This document shows positions 54,432 to 63,874 of a stretch of DNA of 64,000 nt, piece by piece (positions within the stretch are counted from its first letter, which is position 1; every line of letters starts with the position of its first letter). Below the pieces are notes generated by a model. That model saw only the letters and a program-made list of their open reading frames with translations, did not search any database and was not told the origin of the DNA. A program made the position numbers and the translations under genes. This DNA comes from Devosia sp. (lineage in GTDB: Bacteria; Pseudomonadota; Alphaproteobacteria; Rhizobiales; Devosiaceae). Location: assembly GCA_017794705.1 (NCBI GenBank), contig CP051235.1, positions 993,010 to 1,057,009 on the forward strand. Reading direction: 5' to 3'.

Positions 54432-56831
54432 TTGAACGCTTCTGCCATGGCATCGGTAAAGACCAGCACATTGCTCAAGTCCTACGCACCGCCTCGCGGC
54501 GTCGCCGATGAGCTGCTGGATATGGACGGCAAGCTTCGACCCGTCTGGTGGCCGCTTATCGATCTTTTGTCGCGTCAGACGCCGGAGGCCCTGGCCGCCA
54601 GGACTGCGGCAGGTGACCAATATCTCAACGACGCCGGTGTATATTTCAGGCAGCTTGGAGACGGCAACTCGTCAGAGCGGACCTGGCCGCTTAGCCACAT
54701 TCCAGTAATGCTCGATCAGGCCGAATGGAAACAGGTTTCGCAAGGCATTGTTCAGCGCGCCGAGTTGCTTGAAATGGTCATGGCCGACCTTTATGGCCCG
54801 GCCAGTCTTGTCCACGAAGGATTGCTCCCTCCCGATCTTATTGCGCGTAACCCTGAGTGGCTGCGCCCGATGGTCAACGTTGCGCCCCGCTCGGGTCACT
54901 ATCTTCATTTCCTTGCATTCGAGATCGGCCGTTCTCCAGACGGCACCTGGTTCGTGCTCGGGGACCGGACTCAGGCGCCCTCGGGCTCAGGCTTCGCACT
55001 TGAAAATCGCGTGGCAACGTCACGCGTTTTTTCCGACCTTTATCCCAATGCAAATGTCGAGCGACTGGCGGGGTTCTTCCGCGCTTTTCGCGATGCCCTG
55101 AATGGGCTGCGCGTCAGCGATGACCAACGTGTGGGCATTCTCACACCCGGCCCGCAGACCGATACCTATTTTGAGCACGCCTATATCGCCCGTTATCTCG
55201 GATTTGCCCTTCTTGAGAGTGGCGACCTGAAGGCAGAGGCGGGAAACGTCAGTATTCGCACCATCGCCGGTCAGCAGCCTGTCAGCGTGCTGTGGAGGCG
55301 GCTGGATGCCCGCTTCGCTGACCCGCTCGAGCTCGACGAGGGCTCGGCCCTGGGCACTCCGGGGCTTGTATCCGCCCTGCGGGAGGGAGCTCTGACCATG
55401 GTCAATGCGCTAGGGTCAGGTGTTCTGGAATCTCGCGCTCTGCTGGCATTTATGCCGCGCATCGCCGAAAAGCTGCTCAGGCAACCTTTGTTGTTACCGA
55501 ACATTGCAACCTGGTGGTGCGGACAAGCCCAGGAGCGTGCTTACGTGCGCGAGAACCTCGACCGCATGATGATCGGGCCGGCCCTCTCGCAGCGTCAGCC
55601 TTTCGATCTTGAGCCTAGCTCCTGGTTCGGGCGGTCATTTCTTGAAGAATCTGACAAGAACGTTGACGACTGGCTCGAACGAGAAGGTGACCGGCTGGTC
55701 GCGCAAGAGGCCGTCACACTATCAACAACACCTGCCCTGTCCGAGGGTCGGCTGGTGCCACGCCCCATGACGGTCCGTGTGTTTGCCGCCAGGACGCCGG
55801 ATGGCTGGACGGTAATGCCGGGAGGCTATGCCCGCATCGGAAAGAGCGAGGATCCCAGAGCATTGTCGATGCAAAGTGGCGGTTCGGTAGCGGACGTTTG
55901 GGTGGTTGGGCAAAAACCGGTCCAAGTGGACAGTCTTGCACCTCCGGCAACGGGACCGTTTACACGCCGCATGCCAGGATTCCTGCCCAGTCGGGCTGCT
56001 GACAATCTGTTCTGGCTTGGCCGCTATGTCGAACGGGCTGAATTCGTGATCCGTGAAATCCGCGCATATCACAAGCGATTGTCCGAGAGTGGTGGCACCG
56101 ATCTGCAACTGCTTGAGGACCTCGCCGTATTTCTGGAAGCCTATGGCACCGAGGTAACCGAACCCGTGCCACAGAATTTGCGGGATCTCATTCAATCGGC
56201 AAAAAACTGTGCTGCGCGGATTCGTGATCGGTTCTCAATTGACGGTTGGTCAGCGCTATCCGACCTATCGCGAAGCGTTGAGGCTATGTCGGGCAACGCC
56301 CTGCCCGGGGAAGAGGTAGCGCGCAGCATGACGCTGCTGCTGCGAAAGCTCGCGGGCTTTTCCGGTTTGGTGCACGAAAACATGTTCCGCTTCATGGGGT
56401 GGCGCTTTTTGACCATTGGCCGCGCACTGGAACGAGCGGACAGCATGGCCGCCTTGTTGGAAACCTTCGCAACTGAGGAAGGAACCTCAGGCGGGTTCGA
56501 TTTGGCCGTTGAAGTGGGCGACAGCGTCATGACGCACCAGCGCCGCTATTCAATTCAGACGAACCGAAACACCGTCATCGACCTATTGGTCCTAGATCAT
56601 CTCAACCCACGTTCAATTCTGTTTCAGATCGAACAAATCAAGACCCAGAACGAAGCATTGCCCTTGTCGGAGCATCACGGCCGAGTTTCGCAACTGACAC
56701 GATTGGTTGTGCAGCTTCACTCCGACCTAACGACGGCCACACCGGAGGAAATCGATACGGCGGCGCTGCGAGACATCCGAAGCCAGATTGCTGCAATGTC
56801 GGATGCCCTCGACCAGCAGTATCTGTCTTAA
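54432..56831 (+). CDS. Fused circularly permuted ATP-grasp and alpha-E domain protein
   Basis: A 799-residue fusion. About residues 1-470 form a circularly permuted ATP-grasp (type 2) domain, with GILTPGPQTDTYFEHAYIARYLG and SVLWRRLDARFADPLELDEGS as family blocks. From about 510 (GFLPSRAADNLFWLGRYVERAEFVIREIRAYHKRL) an alpha-E helical domain follows, ending with HLNPRSILFQIEQIKTQNEALP. In many genomes these are separate genes. I give the TTG at 54432, three bases after the previous stop; an ATG at 54447 is an alternative. ATP-grasp enzymes make amide bonds and its transglutaminase neighbours could process them. Confidence 0.87.
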   Translation: MNASAMASVKTSTLLKSYAPPRGVADELLDMDGKLRPVWWPLIDLLSRQTPEALAARTAAGDQYLNDAGVYFRQLGDGNSSERTWPLSHIPVMLDQAEWKQVSQGIVQRAELLEMVMADLYGPASLVHEGLLPPDLIARNPEWLRPMVNVAPRSGHYLHFLAFEIGRSPDGTWFVLGDRTQAPSGSGFALENRVATSRVFSDLYPNANVERLAGFFRAFRDALNGLRVSDDQRVGILTPGPQTDTYFEHAYIARYLGFALLESGDLKAEAGNVSIRTIAGQQPVSVLWRRLDARFADPLELDEGSALGTPGLVSALREGALTMVNALGSGVLESRALLAFMPRIAEKLLRQPLLLPNIATWWCGQAQERAYVRENLDRMMIGPALSQRQPFDLEPSSWFGRSFLEESDKNVDDWLEREGDRLVAQEAVTLSTTPALSEGRLVPRPMTVRVFAARTPDGWTVMPGGYARIGKSEDPRALSMQSGGSVADVWVVGQKPVQVDSLAPPATGPFTRRMPGFLPSRAADNLFWLGRYVERAEFVIREIRAYHKRLSESGGTDLQLLEDLAVFLEAYGTEVTEPVPQNLRDLIQSAKNCAARIRDRFSIDGWSALSDLSRSVEAMSGNALPGEEVARSMTLLLRKLAGFSGLVHENMFRFMGWRFLTIGRALERADSMAALLETFATEEGTSGGFDLAVEVGDSVMTHQRRYSIQTNRNTVIDLLVLDHLNPRSILFQIEQIKTQNEALPLSEHHGRVSQLTRLVVQLHSDLTTATPEEIDTAALRDIRSQIAAMSDALDQQYLS

Positions 56832-56832
56832 C

Positions 56833-57723
56833 ATGCTGACCACTTACGACATCCGCCTGACGCTCGAGTATGAGTATGAAAAAGCGGCGGTCGACAGCCA
56901 TCACATCCTGCGCATCATGCCGAGGGACCTGCCGGATCAAAGATTGATCTCCGGCTTGGTCAGCAGTGCACCTCCACCAGACTTCAGACGTGACGCGTCA
57001 GACTTTTTTGGCAACTCCATCACCGAGATTGGCTTTGGCCGACACCTTCAAGCCGCCAGCTTCACTTTTGCAGGTCGAGTGGCAAGAAGCCATGAAGCCC
57101 CAAACCTCGATCTCTCTCCGGCACTGACAAAGCTGCAGGAAGAGGTTAGGTCTCGACGTGATCTCGGCCCGGAATCCCCGCATCACTTTTCCGGGCCGTC
57201 TCCCCGCGTCCCCATGGACATGGAAATAGCAGAGTTTTCGCGCAGCCTTTTCGCACCGGAAAGGTCAACACTGGAGTTTGTTAAGACAATCAGCGCGGCG
57301 CTGCATTCGGAAATGACCTTCGATCCAGAGGCAACCAACGTTGCGACCCGTCCCATTGAGGCGTTCACAAGCCGCCGCGGGGTTTGCCAGGACTTCACAC
57401 ACATCATGATATCGTCGTTGCGGAGCGCCGGAATACCCGCTGCATATGTGAGCGGCTACCTGCGCACATCACCCCCGCCAGGACAAGAGCGGCTGGAAGG
57501 AGCTGACGCAATGCACGCCTGGGTCCGAGCCTGGTGCGGCAATGAAATGGGCTGGGTCGAAATCGACCCGACCAACGACGTCATGGTCGGCAGGGACCAC
57601 ATTCTTGTGGCAATCGGACAGGACTATTTCGACGTGGCACCAATCAAGGGCTCCCTCAGAGGTTCCGGAGACCACGCGACCCGCCAAAGGGTGGATGTCA
57701 TACCGGTGCCCTCAGGTATCTGA
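56833..57723 (+). CDS. Transglutaminase-like cysteine peptidase/amidase
   Basis: A 296-residue transglutaminase-family protein. The N-terminal region (YDIRLTLEYEYEKAAVDSHHILRIMPRD) is followed by a complete triad: Cys185 (RRGVCQDFTH), His228 (DAMHAW) and Asp245 (WVEIDPTND). The ATG at 56833 follows the ATP-grasp stop immediately. It closes the trio. Two transglutaminase folds with an ATP-grasp ligase suggest building and trimming of an amide-linked molecule, but no substrate is known. Confidence 0.88.
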   Translation: MLTTYDIRLTLEYEYEKAAVDSHHILRIMPRDLPDQRLISGLVSSAPPPDFRRDASDFFGNSITEIGFGRHLQAASFTFAGRVARSHEAPNLDLSPALTKLQEEVRSRRDLGPESPHHFSGPSPRVPMDMEIAEFSRSLFAPERSTLEFVKTISAALHSEMTFDPEATNVATRPIEAFTSRRGVCQDFTHIMISSLRSAGIPAAYVSGYLRTSPPPGQERLEGADAMHAWVRAWCGNEMGWVEIDPTNDVMVGRDHILVAIGQDYFDVAPIKGSLRGSGDHATRQRVDVIPVPSGI

Positions 57724-57866: not shown

Positions 57867-58319
57867 CTAGTCTGGCGTGCGTTCTGCCAAGAGCTCGACC
57901 AGATCAAGGTCTTGTCGCGTGGTCAGCGACACGTAAGTAAATGTCATGGTCTCACGGCTTGTCACCATATCGCCCGGGAACGGCATGTAGGCCAACTCCC
58001 GACTGGCAAATGCGGGCGATGCAGTGCCGATTTGCCAGTTTGCCACAATCGATGTGTCCACTAGATGCTGGATCAACCCATCACTTCCCTTGCGGTTGAA
58101 CGGAATGCCCGCCAGCCTCAAATAGCTGGTCTTGTCCTCGGCTGCCCGAAAGCCGTCCACAAAAGCAGCGGTCAGGACTTTGAGTTCCTCGGCGTCGGAG
58201 TGCGGATGAAAGTGCGAGTGTAGGTGCTCGGTTGGTGTGTGATTATGACCATGGTCATGACCGTGATTATGTTTGTGGTGATGATGGTGGTGCCCGGCAG
58301 AGTAACTGGGATCATGCAT
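57867..58319 (-). CDS. Histidine-rich small protein, putative metal-delivery factor of the guanidine operon
   Basis: A 150-residue protein with 18 histidines in its first 40 residues, including a natural run of six (H10-H15) and H-x-H alternations. After that tract an ordinary globular region of about 105 residues (ELKVLTAAFVDGFRAAEDKTSYLRLAG onward) resembles no family I recognise. AGGAG lies before the ATG at 58319, nine bases after the guanidine hydrolase stop, so it belongs to the operon. Such histidine tracts bind Ni/Co/Zn. The metal-dependent enzyme beside it and the absence of GhaA/GhaB-like Ni chaperones suggest it stores or delivers that metal. Confidence 0.75.
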   Translation of the reverse strand: MHDPSYSAGHHHHHHKHNHGHDHGHNHTPTEHLHSHFHPHSDAEELKVLTAAFVDGFRAAEDKTSYLRLAGIPFNRKGSDGLIQHLVDTSIVANWQIGTASPAFASRELAYMPFPGDMVTSRETMTFTYVSLTTRQDLDLVELLAERTPD

Positions 58320-58328
58320 GGCTTTCTC

Positions 58329-59561
58329 CTAGTAGTCAGGGCCAGGGGGGATACTTACTGGCTTGTCAATGATGGACTTATGGCTGCCCAATTTGCCGTG
58401 GCTAACCATTGATCCCAGCACGTCGACAATGACGCGGGTCGCAAGAAGCGCCGTGATATCCGACGTGTCGTAGGGTGGAGACACTTCGACAACCTCAAGC
58501 CCGCAAATGCCCTCGGCAGCAACCCGCGACACCAGTTCCAGTGCCTCACGAGGCAAGAAGCCACCCGGTTCTGGCCAACCGGTGCCCGGCACAAAGCCGC
58601 AGTCAACGGAGTCGATGTCGAAGGAAATGTAAACTGCGTCCGCGTCCTTCCACGCCATCTCAAGCGCTCGAGTCGCGGTTTCCTCCAAACCCAGTTCCTC
58701 CACGTCGCGCATAGTCATTATGTTCGTGTTGCGCTTGCGCGCCTCCTGCACGCCTTCACGCGGCACCTGCCATCCGCCGATGCCAACCTGAACCAGATTG
58801 ACCGCCGGCACATTGATCAAATCAGTCGCATGGAACCAGGGTGTGGTATGCATGCGTTCGTCGAGATCTTTTTCTTGGATGTCGATGTGCCGGTCGAAAT
58901 GAACGATGCCAATTCGTTTCGAAGTGCAGTTGGCGATGCCGCGCACGCAAGGGAAACCGATAGAGTGATCGCCACCGATCATGATGGGCAGGGCACCTGA
59001 CGAGGCCACGTGGCTGACTGCGCGGGTGATCTGGTCGAAGGTCTTTTCGATGTTCGCAGGGATGGTGAATACGTCGCCGACGTCGCAAAGCGTCATTTGC
59101 TCTCGAAGGTCGATACCCATTTCATAATTGTAAGGCGTGTAAAGCGCAGAGATTTTCCGGACTCCCTGCGGGCCGAAGCGGGTGCCGGGACGATATGTAG
59201 TTCCGCCATCGAATGGAATGCCGATGATCGCCGCGTCAAAATTGCCAACCTGCGTGACATCTTCGATATACGGTGCCTTCAGGAAAGTGTTGATCCCGGC
59301 ATAGTGAGGCAACTCGCCCCGCGCGAAGGTGGGAATGTTCTTGTCTTCAAGAGAATCCGATCCAGTCAGTCCCATCTTGAGCGCCCACGCGCGTTCTTTT
59401 TTCCAGGCGTCCTGTGGGATTTCCGCCTCCGCGAGCGCCGCCTTCCAACCTCGCATGTTGAGCTTGTCGAAGTCCGGATGGTGGTAACGCGCCAGCTCGC
59501 GCTCGGAAAATGCGCCAAGACGCGTGCGCGTCTGGCGCGTGAATTCAAGATGATCGCGCAT
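58329..59561 (-). CDS. gdmH: Guanidine hydrolase-like ureohydrolase (GdmH type, arginase superfamily)
   Basis: A 410-residue arginase-superfamily metallohydrolase. Metal-site motifs are GGDHS (His199), D223-R-H225-I-D227 and S-F-D315-I-D317-S-V-D320. The DRHID in place of arginase-type DAHxD, the following IQEKDLDERMHTTPWFHAT block and a long N-terminal extension of about 100 residues match what I recall of Synechocystis Sll1077/GdmH, a Ni-dependent guanidine hydrolase (guanidine to urea plus ammonia). The start at 59561 has GGAGGAG. The guanidine-I riboswitch and TIGR03427-type ABC importer in the same operon strongly support guanidine as substrate. Agmatinase or guanidinobutyrase remain formal alternatives. 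Confidence 0.88.
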   Translation of the reverse strand: MRDHLEFTRQTRTRLGAFSERELARYHHPDFDKLNMRGWKAALAEAEIPQDAWKKERAWALKMGLTGSDSLEDKNIPTFARGELPHYAGINTFLKAPYIEDVTQVGNFDAAIIGIPFDGGTTYRPGTRFGPQGVRKISALYTPYNYEMGIDLREQMTLCDVGDVFTIPANIEKTFDQITRAVSHVASSGALPIMIGGDHSIGFPCVRGIANCTSKRIGIVHFDRHIDIQEKDLDERMHTTPWFHATDLINVPAVNLVQVGIGGWQVPREGVQEARKRNTNIMTMRDVEELGLEETATRALEMAWKDADAVYISFDIDSVDCGFVPGTGWPEPGGFLPREALELVSRVAAEGICGLEVVEVSPPYDTSDITALLATRVIVDVLGSMVSHGKLGSHKSIIDKPVSIPPGPDY

Positions 59562-60345
59562 CTGTAGTCTCCTCCGGTCTGGGATAGATGATATCGGCAA
59601 TCTCGGTCGGGGGTTCGGTCACCGGCCCTGATTTGAGGTCGAGGTCATAGGTGACGGTCGCACCAAAGGCCTCTGGACTATCAGGGTCGTGACGGACCTT
59701 GTCGAAGACCAGCAGCCTTGTGCCGAGCTTGAAGGCCTCGTGAATGTCGTGGGTAACCATGAAGACGGTCATTTCCATCTCGCGCCAAAGGCGGAGCAAC
59801 AGATCATGCATGTCAACGCGGATTCCTGGGTCGAGGGCGCCGAAAGGCTCGTCGAGCAACAGGATCTTGGGGCGCATGAGCAGCGCTTGAGCAATGGCCA
59901 ACCGCTGCTGCATGCCGCCGGACAATTGTGCCGGATAGCGATCCTTGGCGGCCATCAAGCCGATATTGGAGAGCGTTTCCGCCACGGCTTGCTTGGCCGA
60001 GGAGCGCGCCGACCCGAAAAGGCGACCCGTCCATCTAGCAGTGGCGAACTCCTCAGCTAGAACGAGATTGTCCTCAACCGTCAACTGCGGGAACACGGAA
60101 TAGCGCTGAAAAACGATGCCGCGGTCTGGAGTCGGCTCGGGTGGCAGGGCTGTGCCGTCTACCGAAACGGTGCCGCTCGACTGCACTTCTTGCGATAAAA
60201 GTATGCGCAAGAAGGTTGACTTGCCGCAGCCCGACGCCCCGACAATCGTGCAAAATGTGCCTTTGGCGACGCTGAGGTTGACCCGTTCGAGCACCTGCGT
60301 GTCACCATAACGTTTAGTGAGGCGCGAGACTTCGACAAAACTCAT
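59545..60345 (-). CDS. ABC transporter ATP-binding protein of the guanidine importer
   Basis: A 266-residue nitrate/taurine-type (NrtD/SsuB/TauB) ATPase: Walker A GASGCGKST, signature LSGGMQQRL, Walker B ILLLDEPFGALDP, H-loop VTHDIHEA. It overlaps the gdmH start by 17 bases and its own start overlaps the permease stop by four, so translation is coupled. In cyanobacterial guanidine loci the same transporter type accompanies gdmH, which supports a guanidine import role. Confidence 0.92.
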   Translation of the reverse strand: MSFVEVSRLTKRYGDTQVLERVNLSVAKGTFCTIVGASGCGKSTFLRILLSQEVQSSGTVSVDGTALPPEPTPDRGIVFQRYSVFPQLTVEDNLVLAEEFATARWTGRLFGSARSSAKQAVAETLSNIGLMAAKDRYPAQLSGGMQQRLAIAQALLMRPKILLLDEPFGALDPGIRVDMHDLLLRLWREMEMTVFMVTHDIHEAFKLGTRLLVFDKVRHDPDSPEAFGATVTYDLDLKSGPVTEPPTEIADIIYPRPEETTDARSS

Positions 60346-61163
60346 AACGCCTCACCCTCCAGAAACGCCCAGCGGAAGATCCGCCGGGAGAATAGAAGCA
60401 AGGCACGGTCGATGAGAAAGGCCAAAAGAGTGATCCAGGCGACGTAAGGAAGAATGACATCCATCGCCAAGTAACGACGCACCAAGAAGATGCGGTAGCC
60501 AAGCCCCGTGGTTGAGGCGATGGCTTCGGCCGAAATCAGAAAGATGAAAGCGGGGATCAACCCCAGCCGCAGCGCGGTGATCAAACGCGGCCAGACCTGC
60601 GGCAACACCACCCGTGTCACCATCTGCCAAACTGACGCTCCAAGGGTCTGCACTTTAACGATTTGCTCGCGCGGAATGTCGAGCACCGCCTGGGCCACTG
60701 AGCGGATCATCACTGGGGCCGTGCCGACTGCAATCAATGCAACCTTGGCCGTCTCACCCAGGCCGAAGGTGATGAAAAGGATGGGCAGAACAGTGATTGG
60801 CGGAATGAGCGAGATGGCGGCCAAGAAAGGCGCCAGCGCCGACCGGACGTGCGGCACGAAACCAATGGCGATACCAAATGTCAAAGCAAGGAGCACCGAA
60901 ACGCCCAGCCCAAGCCCGAGGCGCTGCAAACTATCGAACGTATCGACCCAAAGCGTCAGGTCACCTGTCCTGACTTCCGGCACGGTAGCCATGCGCCAGA
61001 ACGTCGTGCCCATTTGTTCAAACGAGGGCAGCAACTTGTCGGCCGGATTGGCCGACAGCCGTGCGCTGCTTGCTGCGGCGTAAACGCCCGCCAGCCCTAG
61101 AAAGGGGATGGCCCCCAAAAACAGGGCCATCCGCCGGCTAACAGTTTGGTTGATGATACGCAC
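60342..61163 (-). CDS. ABC transporter permease of the guanidine importer
   Basis: A 273-residue SsuC/TauC-like permease (BPD_transp_1). After an N-terminal helix (RRMALFLGAIPFLGLAGVYAAA), the C-terminal half carries the family EAA region DIPREQIVKVQTLGASVWQMVTRVVLPQVWPRL and then I-S-A-E-A-I-A-S-T-T-G-L-G-Y-R-I-F, typical of nitrate/sulfonate/urea-type importers. It lies 23 bases after the binding-protein stop. Confidence 0.92.
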   Translation of the reverse strand: MRIINQTVSRRMALFLGAIPFLGLAGVYAAASSARLSANPADKLLPSFEQMGTTFWRMATVPEVRTGDLTLWVDTFDSLQRLGLGLGVSVLLALTFGIAIGFVPHVRSALAPFLAAISLIPPITVLPILFITFGLGETAKVALIAVGTAPVMIRSVAQAVLDIPREQIVKVQTLGASVWQMVTRVVLPQVWPRLITALRLGLIPAFIFLISAEAIASTTGLGYRIFLVRRYLAMDVILPYVAWITLLAFLIDRALLLFSRRIFRWAFLEGEAL

Positions 61164-61186
61164 AGCTGTTCGAAGAGATCGGTTCG

Positions 61187-62251
61187 CTAGAGCGCTCCGT
61201 CCGCAGCCATTTGCATGTAGGTTGTGTCGAACCTCAATTTGACATTGGCTTCGTCGCCATAGACCGATCCGTCGGGGAAGGCGACGCCGACAAATTCAGA
61301 GCTTGGCGCACCTTCGCCCAGAATACCGTGGTCAAATAGGAAGGTGGCCACAAACTCCATGGTCTGCGGCAGATCGGCGCTCTCCGTGAACGCGACCGCG
61401 GTCGCGGGGTCGAAGAACATTTCCGTGGAATCGAGTTGGGCGTTGTAACCAGCAAGGTCGGTTCCTGACGCTTCGGCCATCGCCGTCAATGCGGCTTCAT
61501 CGCCCGAAGCCATCAGTGCCATGGTTTCATACCAAGCTCCGACCAGCGCCTTGCCGAAATCCGGATTGTCAGCCAGCACATCGGTATTGACCATCATGAT
61601 GTCGATGATCTCTCCGGGAATATCGGAACTGTCCGCGACCAGAGATGTCCCGGGCATGGCCAGAATTTCGCTCAACAGCGGGTTCCATGTGACTAGCGCC
61701 GTGACGTCATCTGTCGCTGCTGCCGCGACCATGTCGGCATCGGATGTGCTCACTACTGTCAGGTCAGGCTCGCTCAAGCCGACGGTTTCCAGCGCCCGTG
61801 CCAGCAGATAGTGCGACACCGACAATTCGACCAGATTGACATTCTGGCCGGCGATGTCGGCCAGCGTCTCACCCTGTTTGAGGATGATTCCGTCATTGCC
61901 GTTGGAATAGTCACCAACGATCAGGGCTGTAGTGTCGACGCCACCTCCGGACGGAATGGACAGCGCATCCATATTGGTCATGGAACAGCCGTCATATTCG
62001 CCGATCGTATACTGGTTGATGCTCTCGATATAATCGTTGATCTGCACGATCTCGACATCAATGCCGTATTTTTCAGCCCAGGCATCCATGATACCGCTCG
62101 TTTCCATATACCCCCATGGCATCCAGCCGACATAGATCGACCAGCAAACCTTGAACGAGGTCTTTTCCTGGGCCTGAGCAGGCGTGGCTATGGCAGCCCC
62201 GGCCAGCAGCATGGCCGCCAAGGCGGTTGTCTTGAGCAAGTTGGAATTCAT
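61187..62251 (-). CDS. Periplasmic binding protein of the guanidine importer (TIGR03427-like)
   Basis: A 354-residue NMT1/SsuA-like binding protein. The start at 62251 opens a Sec signal peptide (MNSNLLKTTALAAMLLAGAAIATPAQAQ); a longer in-frame reading overlaps the riboswitch and is rejected. The mature N-terminus F-K-V-C-W-S-I-Y-V-G-W-M-P-W-G-Y and C-S-M-T-N-M-D match the binding proteins once called putative urea transport proteins (TIGR03427), now linked to guanidine. It is the first gene after the guanidine-I riboswitch. Confidence 0.9.
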   Translation of the reverse strand: MNSNLLKTTALAAMLLAGAAIATPAQAQEKTSFKVCWSIYVGWMPWGYMETSGIMDAWAEKYGIDVEIVQINDYIESINQYTIGEYDGCSMTNMDALSIPSGGGVDTTALIVGDYSNGNDGIILKQGETLADIAGQNVNLVELSVSHYLLARALETVGLSEPDLTVVSTSDADMVAAAATDDVTALVTWNPLLSEILAMPGTSLVADSSDIPGEIIDIMMVNTDVLADNPDFGKALVGAWYETMALMASGDEAALTAMAEASGTDLAGYNAQLDSTEMFFDPATAVAFTESADLPQTMEFVATFLFDHGILGEGAPSSEFVGVAFPDGSVYGDEANVKLRFDTTYMQMAADGAL

Positions 62252-62316
62252 CAGACGCGTCTCCTTGTGTCGCCCGTCAGACCTTTGTGGTCGGCGGTTG
62301 CGTTTCTGGAGGCTTC

Positions 62317-62356
62317 TTGCGCACGCCCGGAAGACAGGTTTGTGCGCAACAAACCT
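62317..62356 (-). promoter_or_regulatory. Alternative hairpins: riboswitch expression platform candidate
   Basis: Directly 3' of the aptamer, in transcript orientation, AGGTTTGT-loop-ACAAACCT (62336-62356) can pair. Its 3' half overlaps sequence that could instead pair as TTGCGCAC with GTGCGCAA (62342-62349 with 62317-62324). The two stems cannot coexist. No T-run follows either, so control of translation or of Rho access, rather than intrinsic termination, is more likely. The gene's ribosome site lies in AAGGAGACGCGTCT, itself partly self-complementary. Confidence 0.5.
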
Positions 62357-62499
62357 CGTGCAGTTGTCTCCCGGGATTTTGTCCCGCCGTGTCACCGGCC
62401 CTTGTCGCGGCTTCGCGCCTGACCGGCTTGCATCTCTTGGACCAGACACCCCGAATGTCGTTGGGAGGAGCGGGGCCGGAACCCTAGATGCGCTGCACG
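62357..62499 (-). promoter_or_regulatory. Guanidine-I (ykkC) riboswitch
   Basis: Reading down the minus strand, the conserved guanidine-I blocks occur in order: CTAGGGTTCCGG (62487-62476), GGTCCAAGAG (62443-62434), ACACGG (62392-62387), then GGGACAAAATCCCGGGAGA (62385-62367). A perfect 7-bp P1 closes the element: CGTGCAG (62499-62493) with CTGCACG (62363-62357). These match the ykkC subtype 1 consensus that senses guanidinium. It precedes the predicted guanidine importer and guanidine hydrolase, its typical partners. Activation by guanidine is the expected mode. Confidence 0.92.
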
Positions 62500-62510
62500 C
62501 CGGACGACTC

Positions 62511-62525
62511 GCAACAATCGTGCCA
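62511..62525 (-). promoter_or_regulatory. Sigma-54 (RpoN) promoter of the guanidine operon
   Basis: On the minus strand TGGCACG-ATTG-TTGC matches all fixed positions of the -24/-12 consensus TGGCACG-N4-TTGC. With the GC at 62512-62511 at -13/-12, transcription would begin at about 62499, the first base of riboswitch stem P1. This implies control by nitrogen status plus guanidine. Confidence 0.75.
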
Positions 62526-63123: not shown

Positions 63124-63200
63124 CGGAGTATAGCGCAGCCTGGTAGCGCACCTCGTTCGGGACGAGGGGGTCGGGTGTTCGAATCACCCTACTCCGACCA
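63124..63200 (+). tRNA. tRNA-Pro (anticodon CGG), CCA encoded
   Basis: A 77-base tRNA cloverleaf ending in genomic CCA (63198-63200). The acceptor CGGAGTA pairs with TACTCCG. The D arm is GCGCAGCCTGGTAGCGC; the anticodon stem CCTCG/CGAGG holds loop TTCGGGA, giving anticodon CGG at 63158-63160; the T arm is GGGTGTTCGAATCACCC. An intrinsic terminator follows seven bases later. Confidence 0.97.
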
Positions 63201-63250: not shown

Positions 63251-63874
63251 TTATTGTTCGGTCTGGCGCGATTTCAGCAGTGCCCAGCCCCCGGCGACGG
63301 TCAGCGCCGCAAGGGCCATCTTCAAGCCGTCCCAAATCAGGAAGGGCTTGACGGCAATATCAAAGGCCGAGCCGAGAACATTGGCCTGATCGATCCAGGC
63401 GGCGCCACCGGACATGGCCACCAGCCAGCCATAACCGAGGACAAAGGAAATCGCGTCACCGGCGACCATCAGCGCGAACAGGGGCAGAATGGACTTCGAC
63501 AGCCCGCGGTCCGCGCCCCAGCCGATGACAAGGGCCATCAAAAGCCAGCCCACTATGAAGCCGAAGGTTGGCGAGAAGACGTAGGCCGCGCCGCCGCCGG
63601 AGGCGAAGACAGGCAAGCCGGAAAGCCCCTCGACGATGTAGAGCGCCACCGTGGCGACAGCAATGCGCCAGCCAAAGGCTGCTGCAAGAATGGCCACAAC
63701 CATGGACTGGAATGTCGCCGGGACCGGAATGAACGGGATGGCGATCTTGGCGGAAATGGTGAGAGCGATCGTGCCCAGAACGACCACGGCAATGTTCGTC
63801 AGGGTCTGCGCGCTGCGTCCCGCGGGAAGTAGACTGCCCAGCAAGGTGTTGGGGGTAGCGAAAAGGGTGCCCAT
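63251..63874 (-). CDS. bioY: Biotin transporter S-component BioY
   Basis: A 207-residue membrane protein of the BioY family, the substrate-binding S component of ECF biotin transporters. Landmarks are the early P-V-P-A-T-F-Q-S-M-V motif, the segment G-L-P-V-F-A-S-G-G-G-A-A-Y-V-F-S-P-T-F-G-F-I-V-G, and D-A-I-S-F-V-L-G-Y in the later helices. No BioM/BioN genes are visible in the window, as for solitary BioY of many alphaproteobacteria. It is convergent with the tRNA transcript and is unrelated to the guanidine operon. Confidence 0.93.
   Translation of the reverse strand: MGTLFATPNTLLGSLLPAGRSAQTLTNIAVVVLGTIALTISAKIAIPFIPVPATFQSMVVAILAAAFGWRIAVATVALYIVEGLSGLPVFASGGGAAYVFSPTFGFIVGWLLMALVIGWGADRGLSKSILPLFALMVAGDAISFVLGYGWLVAMSGGAAWIDQANVLGSAFDIAVKPFLIWDGLKMALAALTVAGGWALLKSRQTEQ

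Follow-up and report, generated by a model that had tools for sequence, protein, structure and literature searches.

The guanidine hydrolase GdmH of Synechocystis is nickel-dependent, and its operon also holds the nickel-delivery proteins GhaA and GhaB (PMC12186494, PMC10094980). Operons of the GdmH type often include hypA and hypB (PMC8390497), and the metformin hydrolase, a relative of GdmH, requires HypA and HypB (PMC11399263). Most characterised relatives of GdmH rely on chaperones of the HypA/HypB type. For the guanidinase of the comammox bacterium Nitrospira inopinata, nickel loading was called unclear by the authors, who found no chaperones (PMC11410670). The subject of this report is an operon in a stretch of 64,000 nucleotides of Devosia sp. 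(assembly GCA_017794705.1, contig CP051235.1, positions 993,010 to 1,057,009 of the forward strand; hereafter the window). It is an operon of a known kind, for guanidine-controlled import and hydrolysis to urea and ammonia, with a new part, a His-rich protein encoded by its last gene. Our favoured interpretation, held with reasonable but limited confidence, is that of a guanidine-induced nitrogen-scavenging operon whose His-rich protein would serve as a dedicated, GTPase-free nickel donor for GdmH; nickel binding, docking and loading are the predicted steps. The operon consists of the following features:

62366..62498, minus strand: guanidine-I riboswitch aptamer (RF00442, 76.5 bits, E 7.5e-12)
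62252..62365, minus strand: leader from aptamer to first gene, in which GTCTTCCGG can pair with the aptamer 3' strand CCGGGAGAC
61187..62251, minus strand: ABC transporter substrate-binding protein of the TIGR03427 type, 354 aa (TIGR03427, 533 bits, cut-off 334)
60342..61163, minus strand: ABC transporter permease, 273 aa (PF00528; top NCBIfam match TauC, under cut-off)
59545..60345, minus strand: ABC transporter ATPase, 266 aa (PF00005)
58329..59561, minus strand: guanidine hydrolase of the GdmH type, 410 aa (PF00491, 260 bits; identity to guanidinases; motifs)
57867..58319, minus strand: His-rich protein, 150 aa, whose C-terminal domain is unrecognised; putative donor of nickel to GdmH (His count, AlphaFold2 model, gdmH neighbour)

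These form one minus-strand unit (62498-57867) of an aptamer and five closely packed co-directional genes. The aptamer is separated from the binding-protein gene by 114 nt and this gene from the permease gene by 23 nt; the permease and ATPase genes overlap by 4 nt and the ATPase and hydrolase genes by 17 nt, and a gap of 9 nt lies between the hydrolase gene and the His-rich gene, the start of which is preceded by an AGGAG stretch. On the plus strand, a long open reading frame (56788-57723), which we take to be transglutaminase-like, converges on the His-rich gene, and the operon thus ends there. A preliminary description of this DNA had drawn the same single unit from riboswitch to His-rich protein, and the Rfam match, the family matches and the spacings bear out its limits.

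The His-rich gene keeps steady company with gdmH. In the 80 gdmH loci of named genomes that are the closest of 569 relatives, it lies 3' of gdmH in 79, with 23-602 nt between the GdmH match and the start of the conserved domain; the single miss (L079) coincides with a contig end. One of these loci (L064, 7905-9653) carries the gdmH and His-rich gene pair with no importer genes found in its 17 kb. The longest frame beyond the His-rich gene varies between loci (by eye, 72 loci), so that the conserved unit ends with this gene. An order-wide search of 397 genomes gave 44 His-rich hits, and all 32 that were examined adjoin gdmH; the context check left aside 12 hits, five of which match the His run only. 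In a class survey of 385 genomes, with GdmH accepted at E 1e-110 or better, GdmH was identified in 11 genomes and the domain in 13, side by side in every one of the 11 (Fisher p 1e-19, ignoring kinship). In a phylum survey of 349 genomes, the same six carry both GdmH and the domain. The surveys share two genomes, and all 15 distinct GdmH genomes have the pair side by side; a stop flagged in one GdmH match (G257) falls right at the end of that match, and in another (G596) none was present on realignment. Both domain-only genomes look like carriers of remnants. In the first (L132, 860-1890; L154), a guanidine-I-like leader (by eye) is accompanied by a truncated binding-protein gene joined to the end of the His-rich frame, gdmH being gone, a decayed state due either to a genuine deletion or to collapse of the sequence in assembly. 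In the second (L133, L155), the His-rich frame is broken by a stop and the 9 kb around it contain no gdmH.

The His-rich protein of the window has 150 residues, no Cys and 18 His in its first 43 residues, and its C-terminal 107 residues form a conserved domain. An alignment of 57 of the 91 non-redundant members, hand-picked for spread and with six rows dropped for doubtful starts, gave a mean column identity of 51% for this domain, with D19, L24, L43, P59 and P72 (domain numbering) invariant. AlphaFold2 modelled the domain as two helices, six strands and a final helix (pLDDT 92, pTM 0.76) and the whole protein with a pLDDT of 85.5. The protein has many homologues though no recognised family: neither it nor its domain matched a Pfam, NCBIfam or PDB sequence entry significantly. 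The fold comparison covered PDB structures; in two Foldseek searches no structure reached E 0.001, the lowest values being 0.15 and 0.33, with TM-scores that were low. Two sequence types were seen in the family, one with an HLHSH motif and the other with QWQTPHL. Relations to DmeF (E 0.005) and to a nickel/cobalt efflux protein (E 0.0025), each obtained with the whole protein of one of the 57 members, look like artefacts of the His run and were rejected. A relation of the folded domain to UreE was likewise not supported, with no UreE match among the 57 members and an hhalign probability of 0.4%. The literature searched contained no paper describing the protein, although the founding 2022 Nature paper on GdmH, or published supplements, might do so.

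In five close pairs with dS of 0.15-0.3, where 0.15 is the floor set by the script, the His-rich gene has a dN/dS of 0.049-0.097 (two of the five share values); it is under purifying selection in these pairs and is therefore a maintained gene. Pairwise distances of the His-rich protein also track those of GdmH best among the operon proteins (r 0.88 vs 0.73-0.86, 73 loci). Such tracking would suit a subunit of GdmH with a structural or regulatory role (a stabiliser, inhibitor or sensor) in which the His tail is secondary, as would the retention of the domain at loci L046, with 4 His ahead of it, and L129, with few His. Most of the 57 aligned members nevertheless have long His tails, with a median of 17 His, and a homohexamer has been described for the N. 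inopinata enzyme (PMC11410670); we regard a subunit role as improbable.

GhaA and GhaB are absent from the window operon, which makes the His-rich protein the part of it most in need of explanation. No HypA match was found in the window genome (one contig, 93% complete), and HypB was seen there only below cut-off, at 76.2 vs 121.2 bits, beside UreE. A HypA match was also missing in 27 of 50 relatives, which were hand-picked from the 80 loci and for which genome completeness was not given. Because GdmH needs nickel, because the genome offers no HypA match and a sub-threshold HypB, and because of its steady association with gdmH, the His-rich protein is the obvious candidate for nickel delivery.

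Urease alpha is encoded elsewhere in the same genome (191.8 bits, at about 2.89 Mb), and the urease region includes a UreE with a long His-rich tail of its own (about 2.897 Mb; L149/L151) beside a gene for what we take to be a UreG-like GTPase; it seems that urease is served by nickel helpers of its own. The genome thus contains two unrelated His-rich proteins, each encoded next to one of the pathway's nickel enzymes or the helpers of such an enzyme. Hpn is a His-rich protein that stores or buffers nickel, and the protein of the window might likewise be a store or buffer, not a loader specific to GdmH; loading would then be spontaneous or the work of other chaperones, for example UreE. The variable His tail, the His-tailed UreE in the same genome and the comammox enzyme, for which no chaperone was found in the published account (PMC11410670), are in keeping with such a role, but a buffer would not seem to require constant pairing with gdmH, as seen in all 15 GdmH genomes of the surveys, or a conserved folded domain of 107 residues in which certain D, L and P residues are invariant, and this alternative appears rather unlikely.

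Several observations weigh against a dedicated nickel donor. Among the 57 aligned members, no His or Cys is found at the invariant or nearly invariant positions of the folded domain and the number of His in the tail ranges from 4 to 27, so that no strict metal site is apparent. A HypA match is present in 23 of the 50 relatives, and the His-rich protein may there supplement HypA, not replace it. Over all 1718 pairs used, dN/dS has a median of 0.54 and rises to 1.7, the high values of distant pairs probably being due to saturation. The comammox guanidinase is active, with no nickel chaperone found in that genome (PMC11410670). Two GdmH loci on Rubrobacter plasmids (L116, L117) have no HypA or HypB annotated nearby and no match to the His-rich family on the plasmid, the search having covered the plasmids. 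Two further actinobacterial genes (L118, L119) likewise have no His-rich homologue in the 13 kb surrounding each of them. A dedicated nickel helper is accordingly not universal, or not always needed, for GdmH. Finally, one of the two domain-only genomes could reflect an assembly fault.

A bolder version of the donor interpretation is that the His-rich protein founds a new metallochaperone family, in which a nickel reservoir and a new fold would load only GdmH, without a GTPase, and would stand in for HypA/HypB in guanidine use across Alphaproteobacteria; we give this an even chance. HypA has an N-terminal nickel site, and 80 of 103 distinct members of the His-rich family start with Met-His or Met-small residue-His, a count that rests on our choice of starts, which favours those near His. 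If the new-family reading is true, these starts, which recall the HypA site, would represent convergence on one ligand set.

The hydrolase of the window is nearly certain to be a guanidinase, judged from its sequence. Its top solved relatives are Sll1077 of Synechocystis (7esr, 7oi1; 538.7 bits, E 8e-161) and the comammox enzyme (9fek; 525.8 bits, E 6.7e-157), and its identity is 63.4% to the former (352 aligned residues) and 61.1% to the latter (355 residues); the next solved ureohydrolase is a guanidinobutyrase (177.2 bits, E 4.3e-51). The ureohydrolase motifs GGDH, DxHxD and DxD, which we take to hold the metal ligands, are intact as GGDHS, HFDRHID and SFDID at residues 196, 221 and 313. 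Guanidine specificity has been attributed to a Thr and a Trp at positions 97 and 305 of Sll1077 (PMC11410670), and both are conserved in the window hydrolase when aligned with the solved guanidinases, these positions being mapped with the solved-chain numbering read as offset by two. The preliminary description had called the enzyme GdmH-like; the alignment to Sll1077, with motifs and specificity residues retained, supports this, and by pairwise scores the enzyme is far closer to guanidinases than to agmatinases. An agmatinase or other hydrolase of guanidino acids, in an operon for another substrate, would accord with the annotation of relatives as 'agmatinase family protein' and with the agmatinase equivalog TIGR01230, which was missed only narrowly (168.7 vs 174.3 bits); no NCBIfam model passes its cut-off, though, the bit scores lie far nearer the guanidinases, both specificity residues are present and a guanidine-I aptamer lies upstream, and we rejected this identity as barely plausible. 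The earlier remark that experimentally studied GdmH systems are cyanobacterial does not hold, as the N. inopinata enzyme has been characterised and solved (PMC11410670; 9fek).

Two side observations concern other ureohydrolase loci. Just behind the operon at two loci (L010, 10137-11150; L087, 2322-3335), a second, distant ureohydrolase (33% identity) is encoded on the opposite strand. On a plasmid of Rubrobacter indicoceani (L116, 5995-12723), the GdmH-type gene lies near genes for a sodium:solute symporter, formamidase and urease, and no ABC importer or nickel chaperone is annotated in that stretch, a urease accessory gene excepted.

The aptamer is the sole guanidine-I match in the 3.3 Mb genome. 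The Rfam covariance model proposed as a check gave a significant match, above the gathering score of 63 bits and spanning model positions 1-107 of 107. The P1 helix had been called perfect, which is true of its five inner pairs; at the outermost pair of the model the window has C-A, and further non-standard pairs were flagged by cmscan in the helix after P1. A core aptamer motif was present in 46 of the 80 loci. Of the 34 misses, 16 were re-examined with Rfam, which recovered an aptamer in 12; loci L013, L015, L016 and L018 had no match at the gathering score, and the 18 outside this re-check include several cut by contig ends.

The duplex of GTCTTCCGG and CCGGGAGAC in the window leader has an energy of -15.7 kcal/mol vs a shuffle mean of -10.5 (z -2.3), and in 23 of the 25 leaders from nearer relatives the best site for such an aptamer-to-leader complement is located at 28-33 nt, which is not so in Rhodobacterales. 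The minimum-energy fold of the ligand-free window leader lacks this pairing (-109.0 vs -102.3 kcal/mol when forced). A shared expression platform was rejected, as only 19 of 59 leaders have a z below -1.64, Rhodobacterales differ and the window fold does not contain the pairing. No U-run was seen behind the GTCTTCCGG stretch. The leader may serve as the expression platform of a translational or Rho-dependent ON switch. Several Rhodobacterales leaders (among L053-L085) possess, between aptamer and first gene, an inverted repeat TTCCGCC ... GGCGGAAC unlike the window type, which is perhaps a different expression platform. Outside the operon, a gene for a membrane protein, which we assume to be BioY-like (63251-63874), lies near a tRNA (63124-63197).

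In the proposed mechanism, free guanidine would bind the leader aptamer and allow expression, and the TIGR03427-type ABC importer, to judge from family and context, would bring guanidine into the cell. The nickel-dependent GdmH is then predicted, with strong support from homology and residues, to split guanidine into urea and ammonia, and the urease encoded elsewhere could take the urea onward. The His-rich N-terminal tail may hold nickel and the folded domain may dock on GdmH and hand over the metal, so that this one protein would do the job of GhaA and GhaB without a GTPase. As a sensing, import and hydrolysis operon, the locus had been described as complete; families and residues support those three steps, but GhaA and GhaB are lacking and urease lies elsewhere. 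A steady alphaproteobacterial partner gene makes the question of how guanidinases acquire nickel directly testable. The loci also mark marine and soil Alphaproteobacteria (Roseibium, Thalassospira, Rhodobacterales and Sinorhizobium fredii) as probable guanidine users.

SlyD and Hpn are His-rich nickel proteins, and the His-rich protein of the window has a His-rich stretch in common with UreE and HypB. Its folded domain shows no significant similarity to UreE by hhalign, and HypB, SlyD and Hpn, compared through the Pfam and PDB libraries only, gave no significant match. The guanidinase locus of N. inopinata resembles that of the window in having a riboswitch of the guanidine-I class and an enzyme of the GdmH type that shares the T and W residues; it differs in having an APC permease in place of an ABC importer, and no nickel chaperone was found there (PMC11410670). 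The metformin hydrolase operon (MefH, HypA, HypB, HupE) is similar in that a nickel ureohydrolase is encoded alongside dedicated chaperones, the window having a candidate chaperone; in contrast, its enzyme is heteromeric and acts on another substrate, and its chaperones are HypA and HypB (PMC11399263). With sll1077-sll1082 of Synechocystis PCC 6803 (GdmH, GhaA, GhaB and the ABC importer), the window operon shares the guanidine-I class, the importer type and GdmH, all in one operon (PMC8390497, PMC12186494, PMC10094980). Unlike the Synechocystis operon, it has gdmH placed after the importer genes and, instead of GhaA and GhaB, a single His-rich protein of another family encoded next to gdmH.

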